This document shows, piece after piece, positions 16,613 through 63,082 of a stretch of DNA of 64,000 nt (positions are counted from its first letter, which is position 1; each line of letters opens with the position of its first letter). Location of the stretch: contig NC_134846.1 in the NCBI RefSeq assembly GCF_965363235.1, positions 57,029,121 through 57,093,120 of the forward strand, written 5' to 3'. The DNA is from Mytilus galloprovincialis (Eukaryota > Mollusca > Bivalvia > Mytilida > Mytilidae). A program made the translations under genes and the position numbers. The notes beneath the pieces are model-generated. The model was given only the letters and a program-made list of their open reading frames with translations, was not told where the DNA came from and did no database searches.

Positions 16613-16693
16613 ATGGAGCAAAAATTTAAGGCATAAAATGTGCTGCATTCAAACTGACACTTGAATGAGACATATGCAACGTGGAAAGACTTG

Positions 16694-22414: not shown

Positions 22415-25400
22415 CTATTGTCCCTTTTCTTTAAGGGATGCCAGCATTTGTATTGCAGCTATAGTGTCACTATCTATAGGTTTATTAGGATCGTCTGAAA
22501 TGATATGATATTCTGTCCCAGACTCTGTCTCATACATAACACAATGGGTAATCTCCTGTACATTTGACTTTTCAACATCCACAATACATGACAAATCGTT
22601 TTCAGAACAATGAGGTATGTTATTCAGGTCAATTTTCTGTTCTGTCACTATGTTGGTATCTTTATTATGCTTAGTCAAAGGATTTGTTTTCTCATTCAAT
22701 CTCTGACGCCGTCCTTTTTTATGATTGGTTATCAATGTCTTATCTCCACTTGCTGACTCTGTACGTTCACGCTTCAGTTTATCTTTTCTAATTCCATTTT
22801 CACTGCTAGTTCTTTGTATTTCCTCTTTAACTGTTTGCTGACAGATTTTATGATGGCTGGTTAGGTAATGCTTTCTGTGAAAACGTTTTCCACATTTGTC
22901 ACACTGGTATAGTTTTAAATTTTGGTGTCTGGCCTGTTCATGTCGCTTAAGTGAACCTATAATATAAAATAATTAACCAAATATTAAGCATTGTTATATT
23001 TATTTACCCTTACTAAATCTGCATTAGATTTAGTGCTGGCAAAAAAGAAGGCAATTTATTACAAGCAACAAAACAAATAAAATTCTATACAGCAACACAA
23101 AAGATGTATCCATTATACTATATATAGGGTACATGGTATGCTGTTTTAAAATTCCAATGAATTATATGTCTTAGCAAACAAGCTGACTTTTGAAATGGAT
23201 GGAAATTACTACTTATTTTTTATTCAAACTATCCTACTCCTTACAGCTGGAAAAAGGAGTATGTTCACAGATATCTGAATAAAAGAAAAATTTATCTGAG
23301 GACATGAATGCCTCCCCTCAATAAATGACTCACTACGAAAATTCGAACTCTGTCTGTGTGTTGTGGTTCTTAGCATTGTGTATGAATTTCATAAATATCA
23401 GATGAGAAAAACCTAGGTTAGAGTAAAGAAATGAAAAATGGATGGACAGAAGGACTGATAGAAAAAAGTTTTAACAAGGGTAACACATAATGTGCCCTTT
23501 GCCTTGGTGCATTCTTATAGTGAAAATAATCATGTTTACTAAATTCTAAATAACTTTCAGAGTTATTGCCTTTGACAACATTGCTCACATGCTAGGGCAA
23601 CAATTATTTTTTGTAAGGATGTGTAGTTCAACAAAATATATATCTTTATAACAAATAAGACATTAAAAGTTTCTTGCTTTTGTAGAAATCTATATTATAC
23701 ATTTTGGAATAAGGCAGTTATTTTCCCACTGTGCTGCTGATTTAAAGCTTTTGTTTTTGTCAGTTTTTAATATGAAAATACTCTTTATGAATTGGCCTTA
23801 TAGTTTTCCGTTTTTGTCTTACATTTTTGTTGGGTTAACTTATCATTTTTTTCATTCTGTTTCTGTTATTTACTCTATTATATTACAAAGTCCAAGTTTG
23901 ATGACAAAACACAGGTCATCTTGGTACTGCCCCTTCAACTATAGATATTGGATAGACAGCAAATGACTGACAAGAAAAATTACACATCGAATGGACTAAG
24001 TGTGGAAAGTTGTTTAAAATACTTACCTTTTCTAGTAAATACTTGGTTACACACAGTACAGCTGAATAATGAAGGAGAAATAAATGCATGTCTATTGTTT
24101 ATATGTGCAGTAAGATCAGCTTCAGTAAAAAATCCTTTGAAACAATGAGGACATTCCAATCTTTTAGGGTTAGAATGCATCTTCAGGTGAGATTTTAGAG
24201 AAAATGATTTAACAGTCTTTCCACAGGTGCTACACCTACAAGTAGAAAAAAGTAAACATGTATATATTCATAACTTATATTCAGAACAGACAAAGTCTTC
24301 AAGATATACAAAAAACTTTTCTGGCAATCAACAATTTCCATGTTTAACATGAATGAGCAATGGATATATTCAGGTCAAAATTTATAAACTGATATTTGGT
24401 TCCAAAGGAAAATATTTTGGTAGTATTTTTTATGTGGTCTATGCTAGATCTGCCAATAGTTTTCCTAAAAATAAAACAAAACATGGCCTCAAATGTATGT
24501 TTTCATGTAATTTTGGAACCTCATTCAAATTGATCCAACGTCACAGCTTTTAAACATCATCAAAGGTCTGCAATGTTAGTTAGTGAAGCACAAATTTCTA
24601 ACAAAATATGTGAAGTACCTTTTAGTGTATTTTGAACACTACAATACAAGTTGATTATATGTTAAATATCAGAAAGTAAAAAAAAGATATGTGTTAAGAA
24701 TATCCAAAGGATGTTATTTGATAGATTGATACGAAGTTGTAATGTAAGGATAAAACCTGGCTTCAATTCGCTTATATTTTCCTTCATTTGAATAAATATT
24801 GAATATACATGGCTGGATCTAAATGGTATCTTATATTCTTAAGGCATAACTTGAAGCATTAAAGGATGTAAATAAATTCACACTTACAAACAAGTGAGAG
24901 ATCTTCTGTGAGCTTTCATTAACTTCTTTGTTTTACAATCTTTCCCTTGGGAATTAGTCTTGTTATTTTCTTTAACAGATTCCTTACTGCCAGTAAATAT
25001 TTTCCCATCTTTACCACAATTTACTTGCTGCTTTGGGTGTCTTGTTAGTGTGTGATTTTCCATTTCTTCCACTGTCCTGCAGTTATTCTTGCTAAGATCA
25101 CAACTACAATAAAACTAGTTAAATAATTCTACTTAAATCTTTTTTTAAAATAAGCAAGCAAGAAATTAATATTTCTTTCACTTTTTTGAAATGACAAAAT
25201 AAAGACATGGACGATATATATTTTATCATAGAGAACTATAAGAAATATTGGTCCATGCATCATTCAAAAATATATATACAATTTGTTTAAATTTTCTTTA
25301 GTTTGAGAATTTATTCTGACATCAGAAATCTAATGGTGTACATGTTTAACTTGTTAATGTAAATGTGATTTTTCATACAACATTTGTACAAGTGTGTATA

Positions 25401-28400
25401 GTAAACCCTCTATTGCATGACACAATGTGGCTGCATAAATCCTAAAAAGTATTACCTCAGGTCAGCATTGGACTCCTCATGTAAATGTGCTTTTACAAGA
25501 TTTGAGTTTATATTCTTTTTGGAAAGACAAATTTTAGATTGCACATTATCTATCATACACTTCTGCTCCCCTTTTTCTGAATTATCAGAATGTTCTGTTC
25601 TTTTATCTTTAAACTCTACCGAACCATTCTTGTGACAAGTTGCCTGATCTTCATCCTTACAAAAATTTTGTTCCATAACTAAACTGTCATCAAATGATTC
25701 TCTCTGATTTTCTACAATCATGCAGTTATTGGACATTGCATCTTCATGATTAGATTTCTTTCTGTTTGAAACTGGTTTTAACTTTTTAGTATGTTCTGAT
25801 ATAGTACCAACAGAGGATACTTTCCTTTTCTTAGTCTTAAAACTATCTGTGGTCTGTTTGTCTGATGATAGGGAACAGTAATCAATTCTCTTGTTTCTTG
25901 TTGCCATTTTACGAGAAGATTTCACAATTTCATTATTATTTACCACTTTTGTTGTCTCAGTATTGTCTTTTGAATATCTTAAAGGTCTTTTTTCAGTCAC
26001 GTTAGCTTCTTTTTTTGAAAGATTCTCAGACACAGAATCAAGTTCCCTCTCAGTTATAATATCTGTGGTGATCTTGTCATTTGTGTCACCCAGATTCACT
26101 GACTTATTTGAACAATATCTATATATGCTGAGTAATTTTTTAAGCTTGCTATCAAATTTGTGAAATCCATCTTCATTTTCCTTTTTTTGTCTGAAGTAAA
26201 GTAGATTTATATCATAATTAATAAATTAACACACAATTTTCTCTTTAACCAAACCAGATTTTAAACTTAAATGGTAAATACAATTTCAATAATTCTGATT
26301 TGACATTCACTTTTCCTATCATGTTTGGAAATTTTAATCATGTTAATTGGTGATGAGTTTATCTCTTGTTTTTTCTTTTTTAACAAATGTTGAAATTTGT
26401 CAATATTTTTAGCTATTCTGATAGATAAAAAGCATTGCTCAATAAAATTTATCATCAAAACAAGAATTCAATATATATATTATTTACTTTTAAACCAAAA
26501 TATCTAATTACATTAGATATATAACTAAAATAAATTTAAATACTCTTCTTTAAGAAAATAGAAAAATATTATACCTTCTTTTGATAAAAAGATTACAGGT
26601 TCCATCAACATGATCATCATATGCAATTCTAAATGGCATAATGGCAAATAATAATGTGCATGGCCAGTCTAAATTGTTCTTAATAAAACATGAAACCTTG
26701 TTCTTCAGTAGTATCCAAATCTCGTCTGAAATAAGATTTATAAATACCGGTATAAAATTATTCTGATAGTAGCGTTTTTTTGTTGCTTACCTACTTACAA
26801 TAATATCAAAAGGTGACCATTTATTATTTCATTTTCTGGCTTATCATCGCATAATTCAAAAAGATGTAACAAAATGAAATTATAAACAATAGCAAAAAAA
26901 TTTAGATGTACATTGTATCACAAAAACATAATTTTGATCATTGCACCATGAAAATTAGGTCAAGATCAGGTCAAGATGATCAGGTTGATATGTAAATGTA
27001 AGAAGGATTCAATAGACTAAATATCAATAACCTAATACTTCAAGTACTGAGAAACTGACATGATCATGAAACTTAATGTTGACTTTTGTGGGGCCATTAA
27101 ACAAAGAAAATGATGTGCATATGAAAGCAGTGAATTCTCCAGGCCCTTTGAGGACCACGGGTTCACAGTGGTATAAAGTTTTAGCGTGTTGGTATAATTT
27201 TGGTCCTTGGGGCTAAAATTTTCAGTTAAATCAAAGCGCTGTAAGCGCTGAAGGCAGTTAACCAAAAACCAAGGCAACCGTAATTATGAAAACTGTGGCA
27301 ACGTTGCCTCAACATTAAACATTCATATATAGCACATTCATGTCTATCTAATGATTTATTTATTAAGGCAAATAATTTATATGTTATCAAAGTTTCAAAA
27401 GCAATGCATATATCAATGTATATTTTTTTTATGGTGAGTCTGCAGTGGTACAAGTTCCCAATGATTGCAGTTGTTCTACTTGGTAGTTAACTTTGGTTTT
27501 ATTTGACTGCTAGAAGTTCAAGTTGACTTAGTATGAAGATGTAATAGTATGAATGGACTGGTTTCCCTGGAAAGAAAACTGAGTTTGTGTTCTATAGTAC
27601 AAAAGTTATGAGACACGAATCAGACAAATGTTCACTACAACAGGGATCAAAGGTGAGGTCTGACTGACCTGCCCATAGTAAATGTAAATGATTTGTTATT
27701 TTGTCCCATACATATGAATATATATAATTTAGGGGTGGGGATCTCAACGGTTTTCAAGTTCTCAAACAGGTAGGGGTAGGCCGAGGATTTAGGGGGGGCA
27801 GGCGGCCCCGCCCCCCTTTTGGGAAAAAAATTGGTTGCTTATATAGGGAATCACTGAAGCGTGACTTGAGTGGGCCCCCTCTTAGGTCAGTCAGCGGGCC
27901 CCCACTATGAAAATTTCTGGATCCGCCACTGGGGGTAGGGTGACCCTAGGGACTTCCCCTACATTTCATTTTATTTGTTATATTGTCCCATACATGAATA
28001 TATATGGTTTAGGGGTGGGGATCTCATTGGTTTCCAAGTTCTCAAACAGGAGGGGTAGGTTGACCCCAGGGACTCCACCTATATTTCATTTAATTAGTTA
28101 TATTGGCCCATACATGAATATATATTGTTTTGGTGTGGGGATCTCAACCGTTTCCAAGTTCTCAAACAGGAGGGTTGGGGTGACCACAGGGACTTCCCCT
28201 ACATTATATTTGATTTGTTATATTGTCCCATACATGAGTATATATGGTTTAGGGGTAAGGATCTTGACCATTTCCAAGTTCTCAAACAGAAGGGTGTACA
28301 GTGACCTCAGGGACTCCCCCTATCTTTCATTTGAATTGTTATATTGTCCCGTACATGAATATATGGTTAAGAGGTGGCGATCTCAACGGGTGTCAAATTC

Positions 28401-31400
28401 TCAAACAGGAGGGGGTGGGGACACAAGGGACTCCCCCTATATTTCATCTGATTTGTTATATTGTCCCATACATGAATATATATGGTTGAGGGTGGGGATC
28501 TGGGCCATTTTCAAACTCTAAAACAGGAAGGGTGGGGTGACCCCCAGTGACTCTTCCTATATTTCATTTGGTTTTTCATATAGTCACAAACATGAATATA
28601 TATGGTTAAGGGGTGTGGATCTCGACCGTTTCCAAGTTCTCAAACAGGAGGGGATGGGGTAACTCCAGGGACTCCCCCTATATTTCATTTTATTTAAAAT
28701 ATTGTCCTATACTTGAATATATGCAGGGGCGGATTCAGGCGGGGGGTTGCGGGCTTGAACCCCCCTTAAATTTGCAAAGCATGGGTTGTTCTCAGCTTAA
28801 TAAAGAATATTCCGATAATTTTACCTCAATTTTTTTTTAGCCTCGCTCTGCTCAGCGAAAATTTAAGTTTACGTCCCTCCTAACCTAAAATCCTGGATCT
28901 GCCCCTCATATGGTTTAGGGGTGGGGAGCTCGACCGTTTCCAAGTTAGGGAGCTACCATTTGATTTTTATGGGGGGGCTAGGATGAAATTTGAAAAAAAT
29001 AGGCAGGACAGGAGTTTTGAGTAAAAAAAAAAGGCAGGATGAGCAACTTGGTAAAAAAAAAAAAGGCAGGATGACAATTTGTGTAAAAAAAGTCAGGATA
29101 ACTAGTAAAAAAAAAGGCAGGACCGAATAGAGTAAAAAATAAAAAGGCAGGACAGAGATTACAACTAAAAAAAAAAAGCAGGACAAAATTTTTCATCCTA
29201 GCCCCCCCATAAAAATCAAATGGTAGCTCCCTTATCAAACAGGAGGGGGTAGAGTGGCCCAAAGAATGCCACCTATATATCATATGATTTACTTACATTT
29301 AGGTATATATAATATAGTTGCATTATTTGTGAAAATAAAGAAACTTTCAGCTACATTAATTGACCCTTCAAAATTGAGAAAAACAAATAACCCTTCGAAA
29401 TTGCAGTAATATGTTTACACTTTAAAAGCATCTCACATGCATTATCATCATTTATCACTGATAAAGAAAATTTAGACTGTGACCATGAACATGTATATTG
29501 TTAAATATATTCTGTTCCCAGCTGTTACGTTGTATTGGATTTTTAAATTAAAATTTGTCAAAAAGTAATTTTGAGTTTCTGTATAAAATATTTTTCTGCT
29601 TTTTCTTTCTTTTACATATATCTTTTGGTTTACAATTCTAGTGTTTATATTCATTTACCATGCATAGATTTATTTTTTCACCTGCTTTGATTTATTTTGT
29701 AATTGATCGCCGAATCCGGAATTATCCTTATCCGCTTCCGGAATCGGATCCGATATTGTAAAATTTTGTCTTCACGGTCGCCATTGTTATGTGTTTACAA
29801 TGTTGTTTTTGTCAATCAGATACAATTTTACTCGAATTTATACAACATTTGTCGGCGATTTTCTGTATAAAGCTAGCGGTTGAACAAAATGAACATCGCT
29901 GTCATGAATAATAATGATAAAAATAAGTTTTTAGCTCGTTTAATTGGAGACTTTGGTGACTTGCATGGAAGGTTTGCAAAGTAATTTAAAGTGGAAGGTG
30001 ACTACGTCGGACGTAGCTATAGAAACCAACTATCCTGGTCGAAATTCCTCTTGCAAAAGTGGAAGGTCGCGGACCTCGGACCACCGCTAATTTGCACACC
30101 TGCCTCCAAATTCAAAAGCTACGAAAATTTCTTTTTCTAATTTGAAATTGCCGCCAACAGCATGAACTTATTTTATAATATACTACTGACGTAGTTGTAC
30201 TACGTATTGATGACAAACAATATCCCTACGACTTTTGCCATTTGGGAAATCTAAACTACTTGTCTTAAGAGATTTTCGGCGATTAAATATTTCATACAAT
30301 TGTTCTTTGACATCTTAGCTAAAAGCACAAGTCATAATGAACTACACAAGGATTCTTAATAAGCACTACTTCCTATGTGTAACTTCAAAACTTTTGGATA
30401 AATCGACGATCATTTAAGTTTTTTCTGGTCATATTTTTTGTAATCCAGAATAAAAAGTATTAAAAAAGTGTTCAATTAGTTATATATAACATAGTAGCGA
30501 GCTAGATAATAACAATGGCAAGTATTTCAGCATTTATTGGGTAGAACACAAATTTAGGGTGCTCGCATAATGCAGCTTAACTGCATAAAAATCCGTAATC
30601 AGTAAAATTTAAAACAGCTTCTTTAATCTTTTCTGTGTGGTATAAAATTCCAGAAAGTACACAGAGAGTTGTGAGGAAAGAAAAACCTTTAATTCAATAA
30701 AATATAATACACTTGTAAGATATAATACTTTCCCTTTTGTACAGCGTACCTGAATAATGGACATCTTTTTTCACTATATCTATGTGTAAATCAGCTGACT
30801 TTAAAAGCTGAACATCAGGTGTTAAAAGTGATAATCCTCCACATAAACTTCTTCTAAGGTATAACCTTGTCATTACATTGTATCTGAAAAATTAAGAAGG
30901 AAAAATTGTCATGTTATGTCTTTGTTGTCTCATTACCTAGTTTATTTTATTTTCAGAAAAAGGAAAAGCCATGTCAAATGCTGTCCAGAATTACCTCAAA
31001 AGACCAAATTAGACTAGCCAATCAAAGAATCACAATCCCTACAACATCTGGAAAATAACTGTCATACTCCTATCTTGATTTGTGAGTTGAAAATGATGTG
31101 CTACAACATATTTTATAATGCCAAGCACCAAACATTTATGACAGCAGAATGAGTCCTTGGTCATAAACTTTACATGGTACTAGGAGTACAGACTTTGTGC
31201 CCGAAACACCAAATCCAGTATTTTGGTTGGTTGATTTCTGTCAAATTCTCAGTCTGAGTGTTATAATCTGACTGCAAGGCCTGAAGCTCTGGTTCAAATG
31301 ATTATCATTTCCAGACTTTGAAAAACTATGTGTTTATATGAATAAAAAGAGATGAAGAGTACTAAGTTAGGAGTAACTAGGGTCTACATTTATAATGAAA

Positions 31401-34400
31401 TAAAACCTGAACCACATGCTTAAGAATTAATTTTTTTCTACTGAAATAATGTTGCAACTGGTGGAGAGTTGTATCATTGGCAATCATATATTACATCTTC
31501 TTATTTATTTTTAACACAAAACTAAACTAAAGTACCTGCAAACAAGGTCAAGTAGACCCATGGTAATAATGTCTGGTGAAATTGTATCTATTATTGCTAC
31601 CTCTGGCCACATAGAATAGAGGTCAAGGAATATCATCACATACTTCTGTCTTCCTTGGCAGCCATATGGTCCCAACACACATAACTCAACCTGGAAATAT
31701 CAATATCTCATGAAAAACTCTGAATTAAATGCAATGAATTGCCATTGTAGTTTGGCGAGTGATTCAGCTTTGAAAGTTAAAAAGTAATGTAAATATAAAT
31801 CAACAATTAATTAATAGATTCTTTTGTACATCAAACTGATATCTTCACTTATTGTATGTATGACTAAATAAAAATAGTAAAAAAAAAATCTTTAAAAAAA
31901 TGAAAAAGTTACATGTACTTGTAGTTAAAATATCTTGGAAAATATGTTAGACTTTTAAAGTACATCAAAACACCTTTTCATATAATCTTCTATATGGAAG
32001 AGAAGTCTTTGTTTATTTCAGATGTGACCTTTTAAGTTTTATTCTACTTAGTTAATTCCGACAAGTGAAGTATATAGACTCAGGAACATGTAATGTTTGT
32101 AAAGAATTGCCTTTAAAAGAAAGGAAGTACATTGAGATCTTTGAATGGATTTTCACAGAAGCCCCACTGCTCATAGAATTTCAAAATATCTTAACCATTG
32201 TTAACTGCTAAAACCACACATAAAAATTCATATGCAAAGACTTAAAAGATCTCAGGTAACTTTTCTTAAACAGCCAATAGTCTGATAGTATAAATTGTGT
32301 TGAATGACATGTTAAATAATCTTACAGAATGCCAAAAGTAATCAGGTTCAACATCAGATTCAAGGTTACATATTTCTACTCCATTATTATCCACATTTTC
32401 TAAAACTTCTTCATTTCTCTCCTCATCTGGCTCATTTTTCATTATACAACTCTTCTCAACAGCTGAATTTTGTTTTGTAGAGCTCGAGCTTTCTAGGTCT
32501 GTTTCATGCACAGTTTTTATTTCATTATTACAACTGAAAGACAATTCCAATGATTGGCTGATGTCATTGGTATTTTCATTATGATCAACATCGATGTCTG
32601 TGTTTGTTGAAAATAATTCAATTGTACTATCACTGTTTCCATAACTTCTGAAGTTTTCCATTTCTTGTAATACATGGTTGTCATGTTTTTCACCATATAA
32701 CATATTCAATATATCCATGTCATTTTCCTGCTCCATTGTGATAATGTTAGTTGTATCTAATCTTGAAGTACAGATAGGACAGTTCCTGATCAACAGTTTA
32801 ACCATCTCAATCATACACAGAAAATAATATTTATCTTTACACAGTGCTACAGTTCTGTTTTTACCATGATGTTGACCTACAAAATATTCATCAATAAATT
32901 TTTATTATATTATGTTTTTGCTTCATGAATGAAAAAATATGGTATTTCTTAAGTCCATTTCGTTTTTCTTAAATTAATTATCACAGGAACACTCTTACCT
33001 CCCCCCCCACCCCCACCCCCCACCCCAAAAAAACAACAATCAACAAACAAACAAACTTGGTATGATAACTACTTAAACACATGCAACTGGTCAATACTTA
33101 TTAAATACAAAGAACCCTTTACAAAATATCAAGTGTTGTAAACTTTGTTAAATTTCTAACGTGACAAATCTAGATCTAAATTCAGATTTATCAGATTTAT
33201 ACAACGCACTGTGTCCCTGGGAGCATTAATTACCATAAAATCATCGTTGTATTCCCTACACAAAGCCCTTTTCAGTGCATTTTCTGATATCTATAGTATA
33301 CATAATCTTGGTTTTATATAGAGCTCTTGGAACTGCAGAAAATACATTTTTGTAAAATAACTAGAAAAGCAAAATGAAAAGAGCCTGTGTCTGGTCACCT
33401 TAGTACAATGTAGTATGTGCATTTTCAAAAAGGGATTTATACACTCTGACTATGCCGACCCCATTAGTTCATCTTGTAAATCTGAAAATGGAAAATTTAA
33501 TAGTTGTGCTGCCAGCTAGACCTTTTTGTAGACAGGGTTAAGTTGCATTAAAGTTTCAATGAAAATAATTTGTTTTACATAATTTTACAAGACTGGCCAA
33601 AACAACTCATTGGGAAAGAACCCAATACTGTCATCTACTGCTATTACTGGAATAGAGTCGAAAAAGGAAATGTGTGAAAGAGACAACAACCCCACCAAAG
33701 ATCAGATAACAACACAAGGCCACCAATGGGTCTTTCAAGGGGCTCTAGCTAGGAGATACAATGCATATATAAAAAAAATCTAAAAAAAATAATTTTTTAA
33801 TCATTAATCATGCTAATGCAAGTTGAATAGTGAAATTATAATTCCCTTTTAGCAGCTAGTATGGTTCAATTTTGTCAAATAAGCTAAGAAACATTGATGA
33901 TGAATTCTCATTGAATCTGTATTCATGTGACCTTCAATTTAACCACTTACATGTAGCTAGAGATGGATAGCACATGAACTGTGCGTGTTGAGTTATTCGA
34001 AGGAAAAGAATGTTAACATTGAAAGAGATTGATTGACAGGTTTTGATCCACAAATTATCATTCTTATAGATTATTATGCAGGTAAAAACAATTCTTTAAA
34101 ATATATTTTTTTAATGTACAAATGTATATAATAATATGAAATTAAACAGACATAAAAAAATCTAATTGCATGAGTTCCCTATCTATTTATATCTATATTA
34201 ATGTTAATATTATTTATTCGACCATCAGAGGTTTTCATAGGTTAAATCAAAAGTAATTAGATGGCATCAAGACATACATGTACACACAAAACAAAGCAAC
34301 ATATTATCGATCCCATGCCCTGTAAATTGTTTATTTTAGACTTTTTATAATTCAGATAAATGTTTTACATTATATTAAATCAAATATGAGAATTTGAATC

Positions 34401-34824
34401 GAATTGGTGAATGTGAATTTGACAGCTAGTTCCCCTTTAACACAGCGAGAAGGTCCTGAACTCAATGGTGAAGTCTTATTCTATTTTTACCTTCTTCGCT
34501 TATATGGCATTCATAGAAGGCCTGCAACTTATCGTCATTGGAAAACAGTACCAGTCTTTTTAATGACTTTTTATCACTTTTCTGATGGTCAGTATCACTG
34601 GTATTATCACAAGTCGATGGAAAGGGAGTGGAATAATATTGTGAGTAAAGTTTGCCATTTTCAATGATAAAATCTAAAGCTCTTTGTCTTAGGTTAGATC
34701 TGTGTATTCTGTTGCTGTAACGATCATCTGGAGGATACTCATTGGTTTGGAGATAGCTGAAAACGTGTTCGAGATCTATTTTTTGATAGAGAGATTTTTT
34801 CGTCTGCTTCTTATTTTTTTCCAT
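22415..34824 (-). CDS. Gene B: GIN1-like dead integrase fused to four C2H2 zinc fingers, 9 exons, 1008 aa
   Basis: Exons (minus, 5' to 3'): 34491-34824, 32326-32876, 31536-31690, 30750-30883, 26575-26725, 25456-26190, 24888-25103, 24027-24235, 22415-22956. All have GT/AG sites and the phases close to 3027 nt. Domains: N-terminal GIN1-type domain (about 15-105); HHCC zinc-binding module (H-x6-H, then CPIC); acidic linker (about 155-290); integrase core (about 296-441) with LGPY and the first Asp (IFLDLYSMWPE, D318). The second Asp block (usual SDxG) and the Glu are not recognisable. A disordered basic/Ser linker spans 442-755. C2H2 fingers lie at about 760-865: CSTC..H...H, CPHC..H....H, CTVC split by the last intron, and CDKC..H...C. 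The tail is acidic. A nuclear DNA-binding protein is likely and integration activity unlikely. It is divergent from gene A. Confidence 0.85.
23000..24026. other. Gene B intron 8
   Basis: About 1.1 kb of AT-rich sequence (22957-24026) separating the two halves of the third zinc finger. The intron lies just after CNQVFTRK, in phase 1. No other feature seen. Confidence 0.6.
27700..28720 (+). repeat. ~120-bp tandem array, about eight copies
   Basis: Each unit contains ttccaagttctcaaacagga, 'gggactccccctatatttca' and 'ttgtcccatacatgaatata'. Its periodic frames translate as repeats but have frameshifts and no start context, so they are not genes. The homologous array in the right arm is at about 47110-47990. 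Confidence 0.9.
27781..27931. mobile_element. 151-bp hAT-like MITE
   Basis: Ends are CCGAGGATTTAG... and ...CTGGATCCGCCACTG, the latter being the inverted form of the common CAGTGGCGGATCCAG end. It is flanked by the 8-bp duplication GGGGTAGG (27773-27780 and 27932-27939). The same insertion is present in the right arm (about 47795-47940), so it predates the duplication of the arms. Confidence 0.65.
28732..28905. mobile_element. hAT-like MITE inside tandem array
   Basis: Starts caggggcggattcaggcggg and ends atcctggatctgcccctc, imperfect inverted ends of hAT type. It interrupts a 120-bp unit within 'gaatatatatggttta'. It is shared with the right arm (about 46935-47130). Confidence 0.55.
28948..29231. 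mobile_element. PIF/Harbinger-like MITE 1 (284 bp)
   Basis: Near-perfect TIRs: GGGAGCTACCATTTGATTTT ... and its reverse complement. The 3-bp duplication TTA lies at 28945-28947 and 29232-29234. The interior is built of repeated 'aaaaaaaaggcaggac' units. The empty site is seen in the right arm, where 'ccaagttatcaaa' is uninterrupted (about 46897-46915, minus). TWA duplications and GG-starting TIRs fit PIF/Harbinger. Confidence 0.85.
33648..33745 (+). repeat. Fragment of AATGGAAATGGGG family
   Basis: Diverged copy (gtgtgaaagagacaacaacc, then 'ggccaccaatgggtctttca') in gene B intron 1. Confidence 0.6.
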
Positions 34825-35140
34825 TTTTTTCTGCCGGTGTTTTGCAAGGTTTCGTCCCTTTTGTTATTACGGTGCAATGGGAAATATGTAAACATTCTGA
34901 TGACTTCGTTCATTGATTTTTTGGTGTAAAAATTGTGAATGTATAATTTAATAATAAAAATCTGTCAAATATATGTGCTTTTCCTTCATATAAAAACTTT
35001 GGACTTTTACAAGTAATGTGGTTTTGTAACAAAATAATTTGTTGTTTGTTTGAAAATTTACCATTGCACCAGGATTGAGAATTGCAAATGGCGGTGTGGC
35101 CAGAATGAAAAGTGAACGATAAATACCACTTCTTATACCA
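34825..35140. promoter_or_regulatory. Divergent promoter shared by genes B and A
   Basis: Only 316 bp separate the two start codons, so both 5' UTRs and any promoter lie here. No clear TATA box is placed for either side. CAAATGGCGG at 35085-35094 resembles a YY1 site (AAnATGGCGG). The ATG inside it opens a six-codon upstream frame ending TGA before gene A's start. Co-regulation of the pair is an inference from layout. Confidence 0.6.
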
Positions 35141-43336: not shown

Positions 43337-43426
43337 AAATGTCTTCATTTAGTATGAAAAATGAGGCTCTCTAACCAACATACATTAGTGGTCAGATAAT
43401 TTAAATTTGAATATTCTTTATTTTAG

Positions 43427-49400: not shown

Positions 49401-52400
49401 TATTTTTTAAAATATCAATCTTCACAGTTAATGCTAAACATGCTTAGCTAATCATGAACTATTTTACTTGTGAACTGTAAAAACAAATATATTGTAAAAT
49501 CTCTGTTTCATTGAAATTAAATTTAAAGGGGGTATCTCAGAATTGGTTTTTGTTGTTTAGAAAATTTAATTTTGAATATATATGTAATCATGGTAATATT
49601 GTGAACAGAGAAAAAAAACATAGAGTTGTATACACAATGCAGTTGCAACGTCACACTGACTTTTGCATTTTCAGTAATTTTTTAAACTGGTGTGGATGAT
49701 TGAAATCATTTATTTTCATTAAAAGGATGAATGTCGATTTTTAAAACAAAACAGAAACTTCAGTCACAATAGTACATGATTTGTAAGAAAATCTGTCATG
49801 TCTGAAATTTTTTGTATAAGATAGCAAACATTTAACAGTTTGTTTCATAGTTTCTATTTAAAAAAAATATTAATTTGATATTTTCTTGTTGTAATTTTAA
49901 CAAAGATTATGTACTATTTCCTTTGACCATACTTTATATTCTATTAAAATCTATTTCATTTTTTGTATAGGAGGAGAGAGCCAAGCTTGCTGAAGAAAAC
50001 TACAGTTTGTTAGTTAAGTATCTACAGAAAGGAAAGATTTTACAATCTGTTCAACCAAACAAATCTAAACTGATAACATTGCTGGCTAACTGGTTCACTA
50101 TTAATAATGGCCAGTTATACTACAAGAGACCAGATAGAGATTTTAATGTCTGTCTGGAAATAGCAGCAAGAGCCAAGAAAAATGCCATTAGGAATGCTCA
50201 TGTTATTACAGGTTTGTTATATTCATATTTACTTTCAAGAGTTTACAAAAGGTTATGACCCTATTTTGAATTAAAAAATAAAGTTGTAACATCAAATGAG
50301 GTTGCTCGTCAAAAGTTTTGTTTAAGTACATTAGTTGTAAAATGTTAAAGCATTTCATGAAAGTTTTGAATAAAATGAAAGAAATCAACCTTGGGTCAGA
50401 AAAATGTAGCAAAGCTTTTATTTAAGGAATGTAAATTAATTCAAAGGATTATTTATATTATCATGTTCTGCAAGATACATTTATTTTGACTGCTGGTACT
50501 AATAGAATAGCACCAACAAAAAAGTTTTGTTCTTAAGTTGAGGCCATGATATATAATTATTATGATTTGTTTAGTAAGTGGAAACCATTTAAACCAACCT
50601 GACACGTTACAAATGTTAAGTGAAGGATATATATGGAATGGTATGAAGGAAAACTGTGAAGATTTTGTACATTCTTGCTGTAAACACCCAAAACCAGCTA
50701 ACATCAAAAGAAATGCTGCATTTAAAAAATTTGATCTTCTGCAAAGAGTTTCACTGTTCAAGAAGATAAGAGTTATGGTGAGTTTGTTTGAATGTACTCT
50801 CAGGTGTAAACACCATATCATTATAATAGAACTAAGACAGAGCACACATTTTTAAGAAGGGTGATGATGCTTTTCCAAGGGATAACAAGACAGATTTGAC
50901 AATTGCATAGAAATTTGATCATTAAAAAAAAGTATTTCTTGAATTACCTATAGGACTGCAAGTGTTCTTTTTCATAATATTGATTATTACACATGAGATA
51001 CCAATTTTTTGTTGATTTCTTGTGTATGTGTTAACCACAAGTTTACCCTGTTTATATGTTCTTATTTACAAATTATCCTTATTCTTGTATACAGGTTATG
51101 TCAAAACTACTATCCATTAAAAAACAAAAGTTTTAACAGTGTCATTAATGAAAGTGATACATGTACCTTAACAGATAATCGGAAAGAATAATATTCATCA
51201 AAAGTATTTTTTTTTCATTTCAGCAAGATGATCCAAAGATGACACAAACAACTAAGCAGCATAAGTCAACAGCTTTATTAAGATATCAGAAAATTTTAGA
51301 TGACACAGCTCAAGATAGTTTCAGAACAGACAATGATCCCACAGAACGTTCTAGTGAGTTAGTAGAAATTACAGAAAATGGCCAACCACATCATGAACAA
51401 GAGAATGAGATGGAAAATGAAAACTCTGAAGTGTGTGAAATTACAGATGCTGAAACGTCTGTGACAAATAAAATTATAAAAATGGACGAAGAAGTAGAAG
51501 ATCTGGATGAGATAAGCAGAAACGAGCCATCGTCCTCTCAAGAAGAACAGACTATGATTTGTGATTCTCATGACGTTATTGAACAGCATGTAGACGGTAT
51601 TGAGCAAATAATTTTATATAGTAAACATCAGATTCAAGATGAACAGGATATAAATCAACAAACAGTCCTTCATGAGGAGGCAAAAATTCACACATCTAAT
51701 CTGCATACACATTCTAATGAAGAAATGGAAAATGAAGAATTAGTGGATAATTTGACTTTAGAGACTGCTGGTGGTAGACAAGAAGATGTCATTAAACAAG
51801 AACATCGTTATACCTCATCAAGGGTGGTCGATACTACAGTTTCTGGAATGATTCCATTGGAAGAAGCTCTTCTTCTTTGCTCATCTGATAATAATTTACA
51901 GGGCTCAGAAGTAACACATATAATTAAGCATAAGGAGCATGATACAGCAGTTGAGAACAAAATGGTAGACAGTAAACCAACACAGACAGAGTATCTTAGA
52001 AGTGTTTCTGATGAGGTTACATTGTCAGCCATCAGATCTATAATGCCGTCTGATGAGCATGATGAGGAGGAAGGAGAAATGTATGATGAAGAAACAGAAT
52101 CAGAGAATGAAGAAATGACTGCCACAGGCGGTAGGTTATGTTATCTCAGGTTTTTGGAAAAAAGTTATATTCCTCGGCTTGGAGCATATGTTGCATGCCT
52201 GTCCTTTTTAGACTAATAATTTACATTTGTATGTTACATTTTGTATAAGAACATTATAATTTGAAAATGTTGGTTATTATAGCCTAAAACTTGATGAGCC
52301 ATTCAACTGTATATATTCACCAAAAAAATTCTTTTTTCACATAAAAATCCCCAGACCAAACAGACGTGTATTTCTTTTCAAAGTTGTAAAAGTAACTCCC

Positions 52401-55400
52401 CTTTTGCCTATATAGCTTGTGTTAAATTTGAGCATTATAGTTACTCATCAAAACTTAAAAAAATAAGTTGAACCATTTTTGCAGAATATAACATTTAAGG
52501 ATATTAGAAAAAATGTATAAAATTGTATTGTAAAATATTAACTTTAAATCAAGTATAGACCCTTTTATGGAGATAAATGCATGAGCTAACATAAAAGATT
52601 TTTATGACCCTGCAACGAAGTTGTTGGTGCCATTTAGTTTTACCCTTACTAGTGAGAAATTCCGTCTTTCCGAAATTCCGTCATTCCATCATTCTGTCAT
52701 TCCGCAACAAACCATTATACGGAGTTTTTTTCTAAACGCCTTCAGATATTGGGCTGATTTTTGGTTTGTGAGTTTACCATGATGAGTTCCAGATCAATTT
52801 AAAGTTTCGTTCTGCTCTGCTAATTTTTGCTGAAATTACGGGCTTTGGACTTTGATAAATTGTTGAAAATCACAGTTATACAGAGTTTTTTATTAAACGC
52901 CTTCAGATATTGGGCTGATTTTTGGTTTGTGAGTTAACCATGATGAGTTACAGATCAATTTAAAGTTTCGTTCTGCTCCGCTAATTTTTGCTGAAATTAC
53001 GGGCTTTGGACTTTGATAAATTGTTGAAAATCATGGTTATACAGAGTTTTTTCTAAACGCCTTCAGATATTGGGCTAATTTTTGGTATGTGAGGTAACCA
53101 TGATGAGATACAGATCAAGTTTAAGTTTTGTTCCGCTTCGCTAATTTTTGCCGAAATTACAGGCTTTGGACTTTGATAAATTGTTGAAAATAACAGTTAT
53201 ACAGACTTTTTTTTCTAAACACTTTCAGATATTGGACTGATTTTTGGTATGTGAGTTACTCATGATAAGTTACAGTTCAAGTTTAAATTTTGTTGCTCTC
53301 CATTAATTTTTGCCAAAATTAAGGGTTTACAACTTCGAAAATTGTTGAAAATCACAGTTATACAGACTTTTTTTCAATAGGCCTCCACATTTTTAGCTGA
53401 GTTTTGTTAACAGTTATACAGACTCTTTTTCTATAGGCCTCCACATTTTGAGCTGAGTTTTGTTAACAGTTAATTATAATTATGAACATATCAATGTGAG
53501 ACTACCATCATGTTTGTGTCCACATGTGTTATTGAAATTGCAGATTTTTCAATTTTTTGGGACGGGGCCATTCGTGTCGCTTTGACACATCAAGTTTTTT
53601 TAAAAACTCTTACATGCACCAATTTTTATTGAAAAATAGTAAGTACTGAGGTATTCAAATTAAATAAACAATTGGAAATCAATATCAGTTACAACTAATT
53701 GAATCATGTACCTTTTTTGCAGGAAAGATATTTTTATACATGCTTTTTGCCAAAAATTACACAAAGGGAGATAATAATGCCCCCCCTTAAATCTATATAA
53801 TAGCATGTCCCTAATAAGTGGATATTGGAAGAAAATTGTCACACAGCTTGAAATGTTCCATTTTTTTTTTTGTCATTACTTCCCTTTGCATTTTGTATCA
53901 TATGCTATGCTTTGGTAGTCCAAACTTTTTCATAATTAAAGGATGTAAGATAGCATTGTTTGAAAAATATTTTGAAATTTAATTACAGAAAATGACTCAG
54001 ACTGGAAACCAAAAGAAGTCAAATCTAAACAGGACACCAGTGCAATAGTTGGTAGCAAAGACCCTGATTTTGACCCCATAAAGAAGAAATATGATACTAC
54101 AACTAGATTTCGTTGTAAAGAATGTGGGAAATGCATTAGAGGGATCATAAGATACAGAAGTAAGTCAACATTATATTAGTTTGCAGGGTTGGCAGCCTGG
54201 GTTTTTCTGGGCTGGGCTATACTACCAGAAATGGGTAATACTGGGCAATACTGGGCAATATGATATTTTAAGCTTATTTCAACACTAAGGCAGCAACCAT
54301 TTGATTTTCTGGGGGGGGCTATGGTTTTTTTTTCTGTACAAACTTTTTTTTTCGCCTGCGGCGAAAAACAATCTATTTTTTTCGCGACAAGTCGAAAACA
54401 ATTTTTTTCTTTCAATTTTAGCATTACATATAGTGGCAGCTGAGGGTGAAACAAACAATTTTTTTTTCTCAGAATCAAAAACAAATTATTTTTTTCTCCA
54501 AAAACTGGAAACAAACTTTTTTTTCCAAAAAAAACCATAGCCCCCCCCAGAAAATCAAATGGTTGCTGCCTAAAGACTCGTTGTAGTTTCATAGTATTAT
54601 AGCTAAACATTTTATAAAGATAACCAGTCATATGCCAGTGAGAGTCATTTCCATAAGATTGAAAACTCAATTTCATTCTCTTCTCCACTTATTCTTTGTA
54701 AGCGAAATACAAGATTTGCACATTTTTGGATACCGTTTTAATTTCCAAGCATTGTTTTCAATAATTCAAACTTTGAAAAAAATGCATTTTACTGGAGTGT
54801 TAAAATTAATTGTATATTAAATTGCTATATACTGTAAAAGTACTTTTATTCGTGGGGTACCAATTTTCGTGGATGAGTTTATCCATGAATTTAAGTGTCC
54901 AACGAAATAAAACAACCATTGAAAGATCCATCGTCGGGTTTGACTACTGATATGATTAGAAAATATATTGAATAACGCCAAATCTGAGAATACTTTAATA
55001 TCTGTCACAGAACTACAACCGCACTCAGGATTTTACCCATTTTATCTTTAATAACCTAAACTGTACAACTTTTGATCTTTTAATTCTCTTAAAAATATTT
55101 TTGACCTATGAAAGTTAGATTTCCAGTATTGATATGCTAGTATGATAAAGTGTTGATTTTATATCCTCATAGTTCTTTTACATATGCATGATATGGGAAA
55201 TTATAATTTCATGCTGGGCTTAATTTTTATAAGAATTACTTGACAATTCAAGATACGTTTATAGCATTTGTTTATGTTACTGTTTTCTTTAGGTGGCATG
55301 TTAATGGCCTAATTAACACCTTTGATATGGTCTTAATCTGTTGATCACTTTATCATGGGTTAATTAGTGTTATCACTACGATTTACATGGCTTAATGTTT

Positions 55401-58400: not shown

Positions 58401-61400
58401 AGATCAACATTGTATGAATCTAGTTTATATAAACTTTTTATTCCTGAGGTCATACTACTATTGTTATGCCCCCACCATATTGAGTTTTATCCTTGTTTTT
58501 TTCTGTAAGTATGTACGTCCCTTACTTGTACATACGTCCATACATCCCAAAATTGATTTCTGTTCTCTTACTTTAGTTTGCCTGAACCAAATTTTATGAA
58601 ACTTATATGCAATGCTTATAACCACAAAACACAAGTCAAGTTTGAATTTTGTTGGCGTCACTTTTACCATTCTAGATGTAAAGGGGTAAAATTTTCAGTA
58701 TATCCTATCAAGTATATATATACCCTTATATATAAGTTTGACTTGTAGCTTTCTTCGGTTATACGTTTATCAGGTGAACATAAAAACGATCTTTAGATTT
58801 AGAAGTATAGATATATGAAATAAGAATGTGTCCATAGTTATGATAGTACACAGATGCTGGCCAATTCGCACTATCATTTTCTATGTTCAGTGGATTGTGA
58901 AAATGGAGTAAAAACTCTAATTTTGCATTAAAATTAGAAAGATTATATCATAGGAAACATATGTACTAAATTTCAAGTTGATTGGACTTAAACTTCATCA
59001 AAACTACCCGGACCAAAAACTTTAACCTGAATGGGACAGATGAACAGACGGAAAGACGGATGGATGAACGAACGGTACGACGTAAGGACGGATGGACAAC
59101 CGGACACACAGACCAGAAAACATAATGCCCATACATGGGGCATAAAAAGTGATTTTTGGAAATTGCTGGCGAGACAAAGGTTTAGTTTGAAAAATCAAAA
59201 CTGTGATTAAATACATTTTGAAATAATGCACGTCTATAACCTATTTGAAATAATACACATATACAGTTGCAAACTTTCCAGAGGTGCTATCCAGCACTCT
59301 GATTTATTGCAGCACATGTATATGAACATACAGGCATTAAACCTTTTGAATGTGAACATTGTTTTTTTATATTGCAGCACATGTATATGAACACACAGGC
59401 ATTAAACCCTTTGAATGTGAACATTGTTTTTTTATTGCAGCACATGTATATGAACATACATGCATTAAACCTTTTGAATGTGGACATTGTTTTTTTATTG
59501 CAGCACATGTATTTGAACACACAGGCATTACACATTTTGAATGTGAACAATGTGTTTTTATTGCATCACATGTATATGAACACACAGGCACTTAAACTTT
59601 TGATGGTGAACATTGTGTTTTTATTGCAGCACATGTATATGAACACACAGGCATTAAACCTTTTGAATGTGAACATTGTTTTTTTTTATTGCAGCACATG
59701 TATATGAACACACAGGCATTAAACCCTTTGAATGTGAACATTGTGATAAAAGATTCACAACTTTAAAGACAAAGAAAATCCACATGATGAGACATACTGG
59801 AGGTCAACAATTTCTGTAAGTCATTAGCTTTGTAGAACTTGTTTTTTATTATCGTCACTTTTAGTTTTTCATCAGTGAATGGAATCTTTAGAAATTTAAT
59901 TTATGTAAAATTGTGCCTGATTCTAATTTTTTGTTGTATATTTGCATCTGGAATATACACATTTATTCTTAAACCAGTTGTTGGCATGATAAGGATTATA
60001 TTCTTCTCAAATATTTTATGATGGTATGATACTAAAGCCCTAACGGGAGGGATTGTACTTGATTTTCATATGATGAAGACATAATCTTTCAATCAGTTTA
60101 ATGGAGGTCTGGAGCTGGCATTTCAGTAACTGCTAGTCCTTTGTTACTTTATGTATTATTGTCATTTTACTTAGTTTCTTTTGTTACCTATTACGACATT
60201 CTTTTAAACTGAGTTTTACTGTGCATATTGTTGTATGTTTCTTTATTCAACATTCACTAGATGTATAGGGGGAGGGTTGAGATCTCACAAAATATGTTTA
60301 ATCCTGCAGCATTTTTGCGCCTGTCCCAAGTCGGGAGCCTCTGTTTTTTGTTAGTCTTGTATGTTTTTTTTAATTTTAGTTCATTTATATGTTTTGGAGT
60401 TTAGTGTGAAGTTCATTTTTACTGAACTAGTACACAATTGTTTTAGGGTGCGGAGGACCACCTCTTAGTGTGGGATTTTCTTGCTGTGTTGAAGACCCAT
60501 TTAAGGCCTTTGGCTGTTATCTGCTTTTTTGTCAGGTTTTTTGTCACTTTGATATATTCCCCATTTCCATTCTCAATTTTATTATCTAATTTTTTTAAAA
60601 ACATCGTTGATTTCTTCATACATAACCAAGCCAGTGGTCTAAGTAGTGGAACTACTGTATTAATAGCTTACGAGTTCAAGTGCAGCTCATGTCAGGTACT
60701 TTTGACTCCATTCTTATATGACTAGAATTGTCAGTTTTTCCTACCTATTTTTCCTATATAAGATTTTTTTTTAAATACATGTACAAATACCTACAATACC
60801 AATAACAATTTGCAAATTATGAAAGTGAGGGGGCTTTTTTCTCATTTTTTTCCACTGAACATGACTTTCTATGAAAAAGAAGTCGGTGAAGTATATAGGA
60901 AGATGCAGTCATCATTTGTCCTTCCTCAATTACAAAATTAGATTCATTATATATAAACAAGTTATACTTGACATCCTCCCTAATATTGTTTTAATTTGTT
61001 TATTGCAATGTAGTAGTACATATGTATTTTTATATACAAAACAGTAGAAAAATTGACGAAGCTTATACAATGCTTCATATGTTGATGTTCATGCCCTTTA
61101 AAACTGATGTAATATTGATGTTGCAACTTCATCTGTTTGTTCTTATGAGCAATTTTGACCAAAAAAAAGGAAAGTTTACACAACTTGAAGAGAAAATTAT
61201 TTCAGAAAAAGAAAAAAAGGTCTTTTTTTCTCAAAATATTTTTTTTTGACTGACCATGAGATTCCAGGGGAAAAAGTGAAGTATATAGGAAGATACAGTT
61301 ATCACTTGTCTTTCATCTGTTATAAAAATAGATCAATTATACATAAATAAGTTATACTTAAGACATCCTTCCTAATCTAGTTGTTAAATCTTTTTTTGAA

Positions 61401-63082
61401 AATAAAATCCCAGGTGTTCACCTAATTATTTTTGCCATGTTTTTCGTAGAAAGCCTTCATCATATTGTCTTTCGTTATACTCTGAAGTGAAAATTTTCTC
61501 TAATATATTTTCAGTTGGTTTGCAATGTTGGCAAAATATGAATATATTCTCTTACTTAATTTTAATCTTTTTAAACATCAGAAATAGTACAAGTAAAACT
61601 GAAAGTAAAGCCTTGCAGAATTGCTTTACCCTTCAAACCTCAACCTTGACTTTGCAATAAACCAACTTACAGTAAATCATTTGTACATTCATTTTTATGT
61701 TTAAAATTATGAGGGCTCTGAAAAATATTTCTTGAGATATATTTACTCATGCTCTAATTTTCATTGATAAACGATATTTCATATCATGTTTTAATTGATC
61801 TTCATTTGTGGACCATTTTATTCTTGATTTAAATCTGAGTAGTTTTCCCTGCCAACAGTGTACAATAAAAAAAGATAGATGTAGCATGTTAAAATATCCA
61901 ATGCAAGAAACAATAAAATTGAGAATGGAAATGGGGAATTTGTCAAACAGACAACAACCCAACCAAATAGCAGAAAACAGCTGAAGGCCACCAATGGGTC
62001 TTCAACACAGTGAGAAAATCTAGCACATGGAGGGGAGCTTCAGCTAGCCCCTAAACAAAAATATTTTTATGCCCCACCTACAATAGTAGAGGGGCATTAT
62101 GTTTTCTGGTCTGTGGCTCTGTTCGTGCGTCTGTTCAGGTTAAAGTTTTTGGTCAAAATAGTTTTTGATGAAACTGAAGTCCAATTAACTTGAAACTTAG
62201 TACACTTGTTGCTTATGATATAATCTTTCTAATTTTAAAGCTTAATTAGACTTTTGACACCAATTTCATGGTCCACTGAACATAGAAAATGAAAGGGGGA
62301 ATTTCAGGTTTAAAGTTTTTGGTCAAGGTAGTTTTTGATGAAGCTGAAGTCCAAGCATCTTGATACTTAGTACACTTGTTGCTTATGATATGATCTTTCT
62401 AATTTTAAAGCCAAATTAGACTTTTGACCCCAATTTCATGGTCCACTGAACATAGAAAATGAAAGTGGGAGTTTCAGGTTAAAGTTTTTGGTCAAGGTAG
62501 TTTTTGATGAAATTGAAGTCCAATCAACTTGAAACTTAGTACATATGTTCCCTATAGTATAATCTTTCTAATTTTAATGCCAAATTTGATTATTACCCAA
62601 TTTTTACAGTCCATGGAACATGGAAAAGGATATAACTTTGTTATAAACATGTAACATGTGTTCATTGAAAGTAATGTTATGTTGACTTGAATTCATGAGC
62701 CTTTATACCTTAATATCATAAATTGAAGGACAACCCCAGGTGCGAGAATTTTTCGTTGCATTGAAGACCTGTTGGTGACCTTGTGCTGTTGTCTGCTCTA
62801 TGGTAGGGTTGTTGTCTCTTTAGCACATTCCCCATTTCCATTCTCAATTTTATTTAATTTATTTTAGGTGTTATTTATGTGGTAAAGGATTTAGCACTAG
62901 TATTAGTTTGAAATCACACATCAACATACATGAAAAAGGTGGAAATATTATGGTGAAGTGTGAGCTGTGTAGTCGTGTTTTCAGAACTAAAAATAGATAT
63001 GAGAAACACATGCTATGTAAACATCCTTACACACCAGAAATATTCAGATGCGATGAATGTGACAAAGATTTTACTACAAGAA
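43427..63082 (+). CDS. Gene C (partial): duplicated GIN1-like N-domain/HHCC modules, acidic exon, C2H2 fingers
   Basis: Exons: 43427-43661, 48997-49160, 49971-50211, 50575-50777, 51224-52130, 53989-54159, 59695-59815, 62868-63082; all have GT/AG sites and 752 codons are in frame, continuing past the window. A stop lies in frame just before 43427, so a 5' exon ending in phase 0 is needed; 43190-43216 (MPSQIHKRN, donor gtaaac) is a weak candidate. Exon 1 is the N-domain (YYDDVILYLKHKRY, KRNIRKMSE) and exon 2 the HHCC module (RHLGF..CVTC). Exons 3-4 repeat both (LLVKYLQKGK; NHLNQPD..CCKH, where the last Cys is His). Exon 5 is a 302-residue acidic region. Exons 6-8 encode C2H2 fingers: CKEC..H...H split by intron 6, CEHC..H...H, CYLC..H...H, CELC..H....H, and the start of another (CDEC). 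There is no integrase core. Likely a nuclear DNA-binding protein. Confidence 0.8.
45520..48480. repeat. Right arm of ~3-kb inverted repeat (gene C intron 1)
   Basis: The reverse complement of 27229-30592, lacking the Harbinger-like MITE. It includes the mirrored ~120-bp array (about 47110-47990) and both older hAT-like MITEs. The outer boundary abuts the right end of the 43962-48575 element. Relative to transcription, the arm has the same orientation here as in gene B. Confidence 0.85.
47110..47990 (-). repeat. ~120-bp tandem array in the right arm
   Basis: Same unit as 27700-28720, inverted (tcctgtttgagaacttggaa). Slightly shorter than the left array, so copy number has changed since duplication. 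Confidence 0.85.
52605..53595 (+). repeat. Dispersed repeat with ~165-bp tandem core (gene C intron 5)
   Basis: Opens with ccctgcaacgaagttgttgg and 'gaaattccgtctttccgaaa', closes with 'gacggggccattcgtgtcgc'. The core has about four units with gccttcagatattgggctga, 'tttttggtttgtgagttaac' and 'ttacgggctttggactttga', decaying to the right. I recognise the framing sequence from bivalve repeats. Non-coding. Confidence 0.75.
54289..54570. mobile_element. PIF/Harbinger-like MITE 3 (282 bp), nested
   Basis: TIR GGCAGCAACCATTTGATTTT and inverse, duplication TAA at 54286-54288 and 54571-54573. A sister subfamily to the copies at 28948 and 35480 (GGGAGCTACC changed to GGCAGCAACC, conserved ATTTGATTTT). 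The interior is T-rich with AAC/TTTTTT units. Confidence 0.85.
54830..55566. mobile_element. 737-bp TA-flanked TIR element, nested
   Basis: Ends TACTGTAAAAGTACTTTTAT...GGTACCAATTTTCGTGG and the near inverse with ...AAAGTACTTTCACAGTA, flanked by TA on both sides, as for Tc1/mariner-type MITEs. The interior is non-coding. Lies inside the 54184-56341 hAT-like element. Confidence 0.75.
56804..57370 (+). repeat. Exon-derived splice-acceptor satellite, array 1 (9 units)
   Basis: Units start (cacatg) at 56804, 56866, 56928, 56990, 57052, 57116, 57182, 57248 and 57315. Each is cacatgtatatgaacacaca + ggcattaaaccttttgaatg + tgaacattg, then a T-tract and attgcag. This equals the first ~50 nt of gene C exon 7 plus its 3' splice site. 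Units 1-5 (62 bp) carry a diverged centre (tttaaacttttgatgg). Units 6-9 (64-67 bp) keep the coding-like gaatgtgaaca. Confidence 0.95.
57371..59312. other. Sequence separating the two satellite arrays
   Basis: About 1.9 kb with no exon. Includes an inverted 'TATGCCCCA / GGGGCATAA' family repeat (about 58465-59150, with ggacggatgg runs) and a cagtggcggatccag fragment at 58184. Confidence 0.5.
59313..59694 (+). repeat. Exon-derived splice-acceptor satellite, array 2 (6 units)
   Basis: Units start at 59313, 59378, 59441, 59504, 59567 and 59630, and the real exon 7 follows at 59695. Four successive spacings are exactly 63 bp (21 codons), the last is 65. Each unit ends in ttttttattgcag except the fourth, whose terminal g is changed (ttgcatcacatg), so the fifth lacks an acceptor. 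Confidence 0.95.
60040..60590 (-). repeat. Inverted copy of the 12310-12945 repeat
   Basis: Runs from tgatgaagacataatctttc through 'agggttgagatctcacaaaa' to ccccatttccattctcaatt, the reverse complement of the 12.3-12.9 kb repeat. In gene C intron 7. Confidence 0.8.
60591..61911. other. Intron 7 sequence, two similar segments
   Basis: AT-rich. The segments at about 60880-60985 and 61275-61380 look like diverged copies of each other (gtgaagtatataggaagat ... aagttatactt ... acatcct). No exon seen. Confidence 0.45.
61912..62065 (+). repeat. AATGGAAATGGGG family copy
   Basis: aaaattgagaatggaaatgg, then 'ggccaccaatgggtcttcaa'. In gene C intron 7. Confidence 0.75.
62066..62640 (+). repeat. 'TATGCCCCACCTA' repeat, internally triplicated
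   Basis: Three successive ~170-bp segments each contain ggtttaaagtttttggtcaa or close variants, 'gatgaaactgaagtccaatt' and 'tggtccactgaacatagaaa'. Same family as 20048-20335. Confidence 0.75.
62736..62852 (-). repeat. Repeat end abutting the exon 8 acceptor of gene C
   Basis: ccaggtgcgagaatttttcg ... gggttgttgtctctttagca ... ccatttccattctcaatttt, an inverted AATGGAAATGGGG copy. It ends about 15 bp before the acceptor at 62866-62867, so its pyrimidine-rich end supplies the region where the branch point and upstream pyrimidines should lie. Confidence 0.65.

Follow-up and report, generated by a model that had tools for sequence, protein, structure and literature searches.

A linked cluster of three genes related to a Gypsy/Ginger-type integrase, probably a host-gene family, in the bivalve Mytilus galloprovincialis

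Introduction

The domestication of integrases is already known from vertebrates (GIN1, GIN2, NYNRIN, and ZBTB11) and from crustaceans (Imagin). GIN1 and GIN2 are multi-exon host genes that originated from a Gypsy-type integrase and retain the HHCC finger, and the DDE residues are eroded in GIN2, which has been found in fish (PMC3424704). The excerpt of the description that was compared mentions neither a fusion to C2H2 fingers nor a linked family for GIN1 and GIN2. Three intron positions are common to Ginger1-5_HM and to Gin-1 and Gin-2, host genes derived from Ginger1, and Ginger1 is present in Aplysia (PMC2836005). Imagin of malacostracan crustaceans is a host gene with introns that has an N-terminal YPYY motif, an H2C2 finger, and a core without DDE (PMC12863088). 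Imagin is a single-copy gene within an intron of MMUT, its product is cytosolic, and the excerpt compared describes neither a C2H2 fusion nor module doubling (PMC12863088).

ZBTB11 exhibits an N-terminal finger of the spacing HX6H-X29-CX2C ahead of a C2H2 array, and this spacing is printed for ZBTB11, GIN1, and NYNRIN (PMC5384227). The zinc-stabilised HHCC finger permits multimerisation in retroviral integrase. The repression of TP53 by ZBTB11 requires Cys116 of HHCC, and rescue by ZBTB11 in fish survives the loss of the N terminus or of the fingers but is abolished by point mutations in HHCC (PMC5384227). The fusions of BTB with integrase and fingers are located primarily in Chordata (808 of 828) (PMC12062965). 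Mollusc transcription factors that are derived from TEs combine TE parts with DNA-binding domains in Aplysia, Crassostrea, and others, where the rve signature has been reported in the CENPB and HTH-Psq genes, and the families named in the part compared lack an architecture of HHCC and C2H2 (PMC10027918). No molluscan integrase-C2H2 family of the kind described below was recognised among the titles and opening lines of abstracts of the open-access papers listed.

Results

Layout and gene models of the cluster

The window is the whole stretch of 64,000 nucleotides of Mytilus galloprovincialis DNA that was analysed, and all positions refer to it. Three neighbouring multi-exon genes were identified at 22415-63082, where gene A is on the minus strand and genes B and C are on the plus strand.

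Gene A runs from 34824 to 22415 on the minus strand, consists of nine exons, and encodes 1008 amino acids with both start and stop present. Exon 1 (34491..34824) consists of the ATG, the N-domain, and the first His of HHCC, and it ends at the donor GAAG/gtaaaa in phase 1. Exon 2 (32326..32876) consists of the remainder of HHCC and an acidic linker. The integrase core starts in exon 3 (31536..31690), continues in exon 4 (30750..30883), and ends in exon 5 (26575..26725). Exon 6 (25456..26190) encodes a charged low-complexity linker that exhibits no Pfam family at or above the cut-off, and exon 7 (24888..25103) also encodes linker. Exon 8 (24027..24235) encodes C2H2 fingers. Exon 9 (22415..22956) consists of the last C2H2-type finger, the C-terminal tail, and the stop.

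Gene B runs from 35141 to 42608 on the plus strand, consists of six exons, and encodes 543 amino acids with both start and stop present. Exon 1 (35141..35426) consists of the start, the N-domain, and the first His, and exon 2 (38317..38633) consists of HHCC and a linker. The core starts in exon 3 (39699..39853), continues in exon 4 (40539..40672), and ends in exon 5 (41075..41225). Exon 6 (42020..42608) consists of the C-terminal end of the core, a charged tail, and the stop.

Gene C is on the plus strand, starts at 43427 as modelled, and ends past the window with a TGA at about 65171 on the window scale. Its frame comprises 959 residues, excluding the first exon, and no start exon was found in the search 5' of 43427. 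The first exon found (43427..43661) encodes the N-domain of module C1, and the next exon (48997..49160) encodes the HHCC of the same module. The following two exons encode the N-domain (49971..50211) and the HHCC-like half (50575..50777) of module C2. They are followed by an acidic linker without a Pfam family (51224..52130), by linker with the first C2H2 finger (53989..54159), and by two exons of C2H2 fingers (59695..59815 and 62868..63082). The last exon (L002:1549-2171, which is 64549-65171 on the window scale) consists of the last finger, the tail, and the TGA.

All 21 introns are GT-AG (eight in A, five in B, and eight in C including the one before the last exon), and their phases are consistent. 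The start codons of the divergent genes A and B are separated by a spacer of 316 bp (34825..35140) with a G+C of 0.313, a CpG observed/expected ratio of 0.80 compared to 0.56 for the window, and ATGGCGG at 35088. This spacer is possibly a shared promoter of A and B.

The N-domain and HHCC module

All four modules (A, B, C1, and C2) consist of an N-domain and, after it, an HHCC finger, and gene C has two such modules in tandem. A phase-1 intron after the first His splits the module in all four. The Integrase_H2C2 profile (PF17921, cut-off 25.5 bits) scored 35.2 bits on residues 1-471 of A, 39.6 bits on B, and 72.6 bits over two stretches on residues 1-338 of C. The spacing of the finger is HX6H-X29-CX2C in A and B, HX6H-X28-CX2C in C1, and HX7H-X29-CX2H in C2. 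Pairwise BLAST with the search space set to 1e8 gave E = 1e-10 between the modules of A and B and E = 1e-11 between those of B and C1.

C2 is the weakest module, where the last Cys of HHCC is replaced by His. C2 is assigned to the family by its Pfam match, its intron phase, and its position, because its BLAST similarity to B is weak (E = 0.09). The CX2H of C2 is also present in the environmental relative P0007, which is nearly identical and therefore hardly independent. YPYY-like residues were recognised by eye in the alignment and not by a profile, as YP...F...YF in B, YP...F...Y in A, and partially in C1 and C2. The first-pass annotation of this DNA had claimed that the three genes share the N-domain, the HHCC finger, and the phase-1 intron between them, and all of this was recovered here.

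The integrase core of A and B

Exons 3, 4, and 5 have the lengths 155, 134, and 151 nt in both A and B, as the first-pass annotation had pointed out. These 440 nt can be aligned without gaps, and 49 of the 146 amino acids are identical. The gapless BLOSUM62 score of this alignment (z = 16) was equalled by none of 10,000 shuffles, and BLAST gave E = 1.5e-28 for a search space of 1e8. The core of A was recognised through this homology to B.

Comparison of B with integrase cores of its own genome gave 35 open reading frame hits at E <= 0.01, with local alignments of up to 187 amino acids and a best E of 1e-16 in this small set of 35 hits. The check with profiles that had been proposed earlier was positive for H2C2, which is above the cut-off in A, B, and C, and was not for rve (PF00665), which scored 16.9 bits on B, below the cut-off of 32.6, and had no match on A at E <= 0.05. 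No integrase core was found in gene C as modelled.

The core alignment places Cys, Arg, and Glu in A and Lys, Gly, and Glu in B at the Asp-1, Asp-2, and Glu positions, which are located in exons 3, 4, and 5, respectively, so that neither gene exhibits the D,D,E triad. Fourteen comparison cores, which are the fish sequence P0001 and 13 of the 35 hits from the mussel genome, exhibit Asp at the first position in 12 (with one Asn and one gap), Asp at the second in all 14, and Glu at the third in all 14. Both relatives that cover exon 3 of B (P0003 and P0004) also exhibit Lys at the Asp-1 position. The core of A and B is expected to be catalytically inert, because both catalytic Asp residues are lost. 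The tree of the cores of A, B, and Gypsy-type elements placed A and B apart from the Gypsy-type cores with 100% support, and the branch of A (1.64) is longer than that of B (0.37). No GPY/F motif was seen by eye 3' of the core in A or B, which differs from GIN, where GPY/F is retained.

The C2H2 fingers of A and C

Four C2H2-type fingers in A and six in C were identified by eye with the support of Pfam, and the Pfam scan found none in B. The four fingers of A fit best to the last four of C, with a summed score of 187 compared to 148 and 118 in other registers. The best local match between the fingers of A and C is in that same register (39% over 61 amino acids). The intron ahead of the last finger is in phase 1 in both genes, and both tails end alike with AI-x-MLA (AIQMLA in A and AINMLA in C). 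We infer that the fusion of integrase and fingers is older than the split of A and C, since the fingers are in register and the intron and the tail are shared. A single ancestral fusion would then have been inherited by A and C and be absent from B. Two of the three genes had been described earlier as fused to zinc fingers; the fingers are indeed confined to A and C, and one inherited fusion describes them better. No BTB domain was found by Pfam scans in A, B, or C as modelled, where C is without its missing first exon.

Copy number in the genome

The genome that was searched comprises 1.385 Gb in 331 contigs. Among the matches listed for B, 100 in number, seven are located in B itself, one in exon 3 of A, and 92 elsewhere. 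One of the seven is the duplicated end of exon 3 (69% match). The 92 matches listed elsewhere exhibit 22-32% identity with a best E of 7.2e-11. This search scored 80 of 964 candidates, so that its counts are lower bounds for large families. The N-domain and HHCC modules of C (281 amino acids as query) gave 139 listed matches, of which four are their own exons and 135 are elsewhere, with identities of up to 43% and a best E of 2.9e-8 among those outside C. Here 138 of 392 candidates were scored, and the counts are again lower bounds for large families. The matches are spread over contigs C1-C14, with single ones on contigs C218 and C298, which fits the chromosome number of Mytilus (n = 14). The frames were read at two of the other loci, L009 (which also contains a reverse transcriptase) and L023, and both are Gypsy-type.

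B and the N-domain and HHCC modules of C are single copy in the genome. Many near-identical copies, which had been named as a sign of active transposons, were not found for B and the modules of C, and the other matches listed exhibit 22-43% identity. An active transposon was rejected on the grounds of this single-copy state and of the loss of the catalytic Asp residues in A and B.

Environmental relatives and selection

A profile of the four modules recovered seven of 4683 environmental candidates at E <= 0.1 (P0002-P0008). Five of these relatives match B best, two match C best, and none of the seven matches A best. The relatives of B exon 1 are P0002, P0005, and P0008; one is identical in 96 of 96 residues and the others exhibit 62% and 57% identity. 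The relatives of B exon 3 (P0003 and P0004) exhibit 84% and 88%, and those of C (P0006 and P0007) exhibit 72% and 94%.

Compared with the DNA of the window, the similarity is confined to predicted exons in five of the seven relatives (P0003, P0004, P0005, P0006, and P0008). The matches of P0005 and P0008 stop at the donor of B exon 1 to within one codon. The match of P0006 (49971-50213, 77% over 81 amino acids) corresponds exactly to the C exon at 49971-50211 and its split codon. P0003 and P0004 are conserved from acceptor to donor of B exon 3, and the upstream part is poor and gapped. The remaining two relatives are uninformative on splice sites, where P0007, a relative of the C exon at 50575..50777, matches through both flanking introns (97% over 97 amino acids), and the match of P0002, which is without differences, extends two residues beyond B exon 1. 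P0007 probably comes from this species or from one very close to it.

The differences between A and B in exons 3-5 amount to 81, 49, and 89 at the first, second, and third codon positions. Exon 3 exhibits 20, 7, and 29, which suggests purifying selection on this exon from the comparison of two sequences. Exon 4 (30, 20, and 28) and exon 5 (31, 22, and 32) exhibit little excess at the third position. The NG86 estimates between A and B (dN 0.71 and dS 1.49) are near saturation and thus weak. The dN/dS check proposed for all three genes, applied here to A and B, was therefore suggestive for exon 3 and did not show purifying selection for exons 4 and 5.

Repeats and neighbouring features

Gene C contains tandem arrays of 62-63 bp at 56792-57370 (about nine copies) and 59303-59744 (about seven copies). 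Each unit of the arrays (HVYEHTGIKPFECEHC) combines a splice acceptor with the first part of an exon of gene C that encodes a C2H2 finger. The edge of an exon was thus amplified inside the intron, since the real exon at 59695-59815 begins in the last copy of the array. A tandem duplication of 87 bp at 39798-39972 covers the 3' end of exon 3 of gene B and its splice donor, with 98% matches.

An inverted repeat of roughly 3 kb has one copy in an intron of A (27224-30592) and the other in an intron of C (45520-48483), which are 15-21 kb apart and 92-98% complementary in most collinear blocks. These copies were considered as the TIRs of one element that carries the genes and were rejected, as they are located inside introns of A and C at this distance. 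An inversion between the two copies would give each of these genes the 5' exons of the other.

Two similar long open reading frames downstream of gene C (L002:7430-8515 and L003:2509-3615) resemble seven-transmembrane receptors by eye. Two open reading frames on the plus strand upstream of the cluster, 5416-6990 (524 amino acids) and 16658-17833 (391 amino acids), match no Pfam family at E <= 0.05.

Discussion

We consider it fairly probable that A, B, and C are a host-gene family in tandem and divergent arrangement that originated from one Gypsy/Ginger-type integrase gene, is no longer mobile, and likely consists of regulators. The shared exon-intron architecture, the HHCC finger, the core of A and B without the catalytic Asp, the single-copy state of B and of the modules of C, and the relatives confined to exons lead to this reading. 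The first-pass annotation had regarded all three as domesticated host genes. The support for domestication is good in the case of B and C, which exhibit single-copy sequence, intact frames, and relatives confined to exons. The case for A is weaker, because no relative matches A best and its branch is long.

The same observations bear on whether the locus contains genes at all. Copies of a retroelement or Ginger element that decay in place, now pseudogenes with frames open by chance, would be expected to lose the catalytic Asp, to lie in a locus rich in repeats, and to leave A without a relative that matches it best, as is observed. However, frames of 1008, 543, and 959 residues are open across 21 GT-AG introns, five relatives are conserved only inside exons, and B and the modules of C are single copy, which makes such decay very improbable. 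Slightly less credible still is one broken-up locus that was read as three genes, or a single transcription unit of B and C, as might be proposed from their common strand and from the first exon of C that was not found; B has a stop and a complete exon 6, and C has an N-domain of its own at its start.

The source of the integrase is less settled. Direct descent from a Ginger1 DNA transposon, which would make the three genes true relatives of GIN with introns inherited from the element, is a possibility of some weight that we hold tentatively. It agrees with the YPYY-like N-domain, the shared introns, the intron positions common to Ginger1-5_HM, Gin-1, and Gin-2, and the presence of Ginger1 in Aplysia (PMC2836005). 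The apparent lack of GPY/F after the core, as judged by eye, speaks against it, and the core tree, which comprises A, B, and Gypsy-type cores, separates A and B in a way that any diverged pair could give. The GIN1/GINGER-type label given earlier is consistent with the N-domain, which resembles the YPYY region of Ginger1, and with the finger spacing, which equals that of GIN1, NYNRIN, and ZBTB11. An unlikely reading is that A and C mark sites where a dead B captures or steers Ty3/Gypsy integrases, or else that A, C, and ZBTB11 share an ancient fusion to which BTB was added later in chordates. It is a little more doubtful that inert B, together with A and C, acts as a trap by joining the multimers of Ty3/Gypsy integrases and blocking or retargeting their insertion. 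Long open frames that include stretches similar to integrase are numerous in the genome, their D,D,E is mostly intact where aligned, the domain retained in the genes is the part for multimerisation, and A evolves fast; against this, B is only 22-32% identical to the other matches, which is low for co-assembly.

Returning to the reading as a host-gene family, these genes are best read as integrase-derived transcription regulators by analogy with GIN1/GIN2, Imagin, and ZBTB11. The ancestor may have been fused to C2H2 fingers before the split of A and C. B would have lost its fingers later or never acquired them, and C would have lost the core and doubled the module of N-domain and HHCC. The fingers of A and C are predicted to bind DNA, and the N-domain, HHCC, and inert core may serve as surfaces for protein contacts. 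A and C could then be transcription regulators, since they would combine both properties, and probably repressors by analogy with ZBTB11. B without fingers, paired divergently with A, may be a co-expressed partner or modulator. A and B exhibit the exact finger spacing of ZBTB11, and they differ from it in the retained core and, like C, in the absence of a detected BTB. The analogy is weakened because rescue was not abolished when ZBTB11 had lost its N terminus or its fingers.

The tandem modules of C, and the fingers of A and C that are in register with a common intron and tail, are new here. One linked family exhibits three stages, which are a core without fingers (B), a core with fingers (A), and a doubled module with fingers and without a core (C). 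The family may thus illustrate a route from a transposase domain to a module of transcription factors, and it would provide an independent comparison for the HHCC domain of ZBTB11, which is poorly understood.
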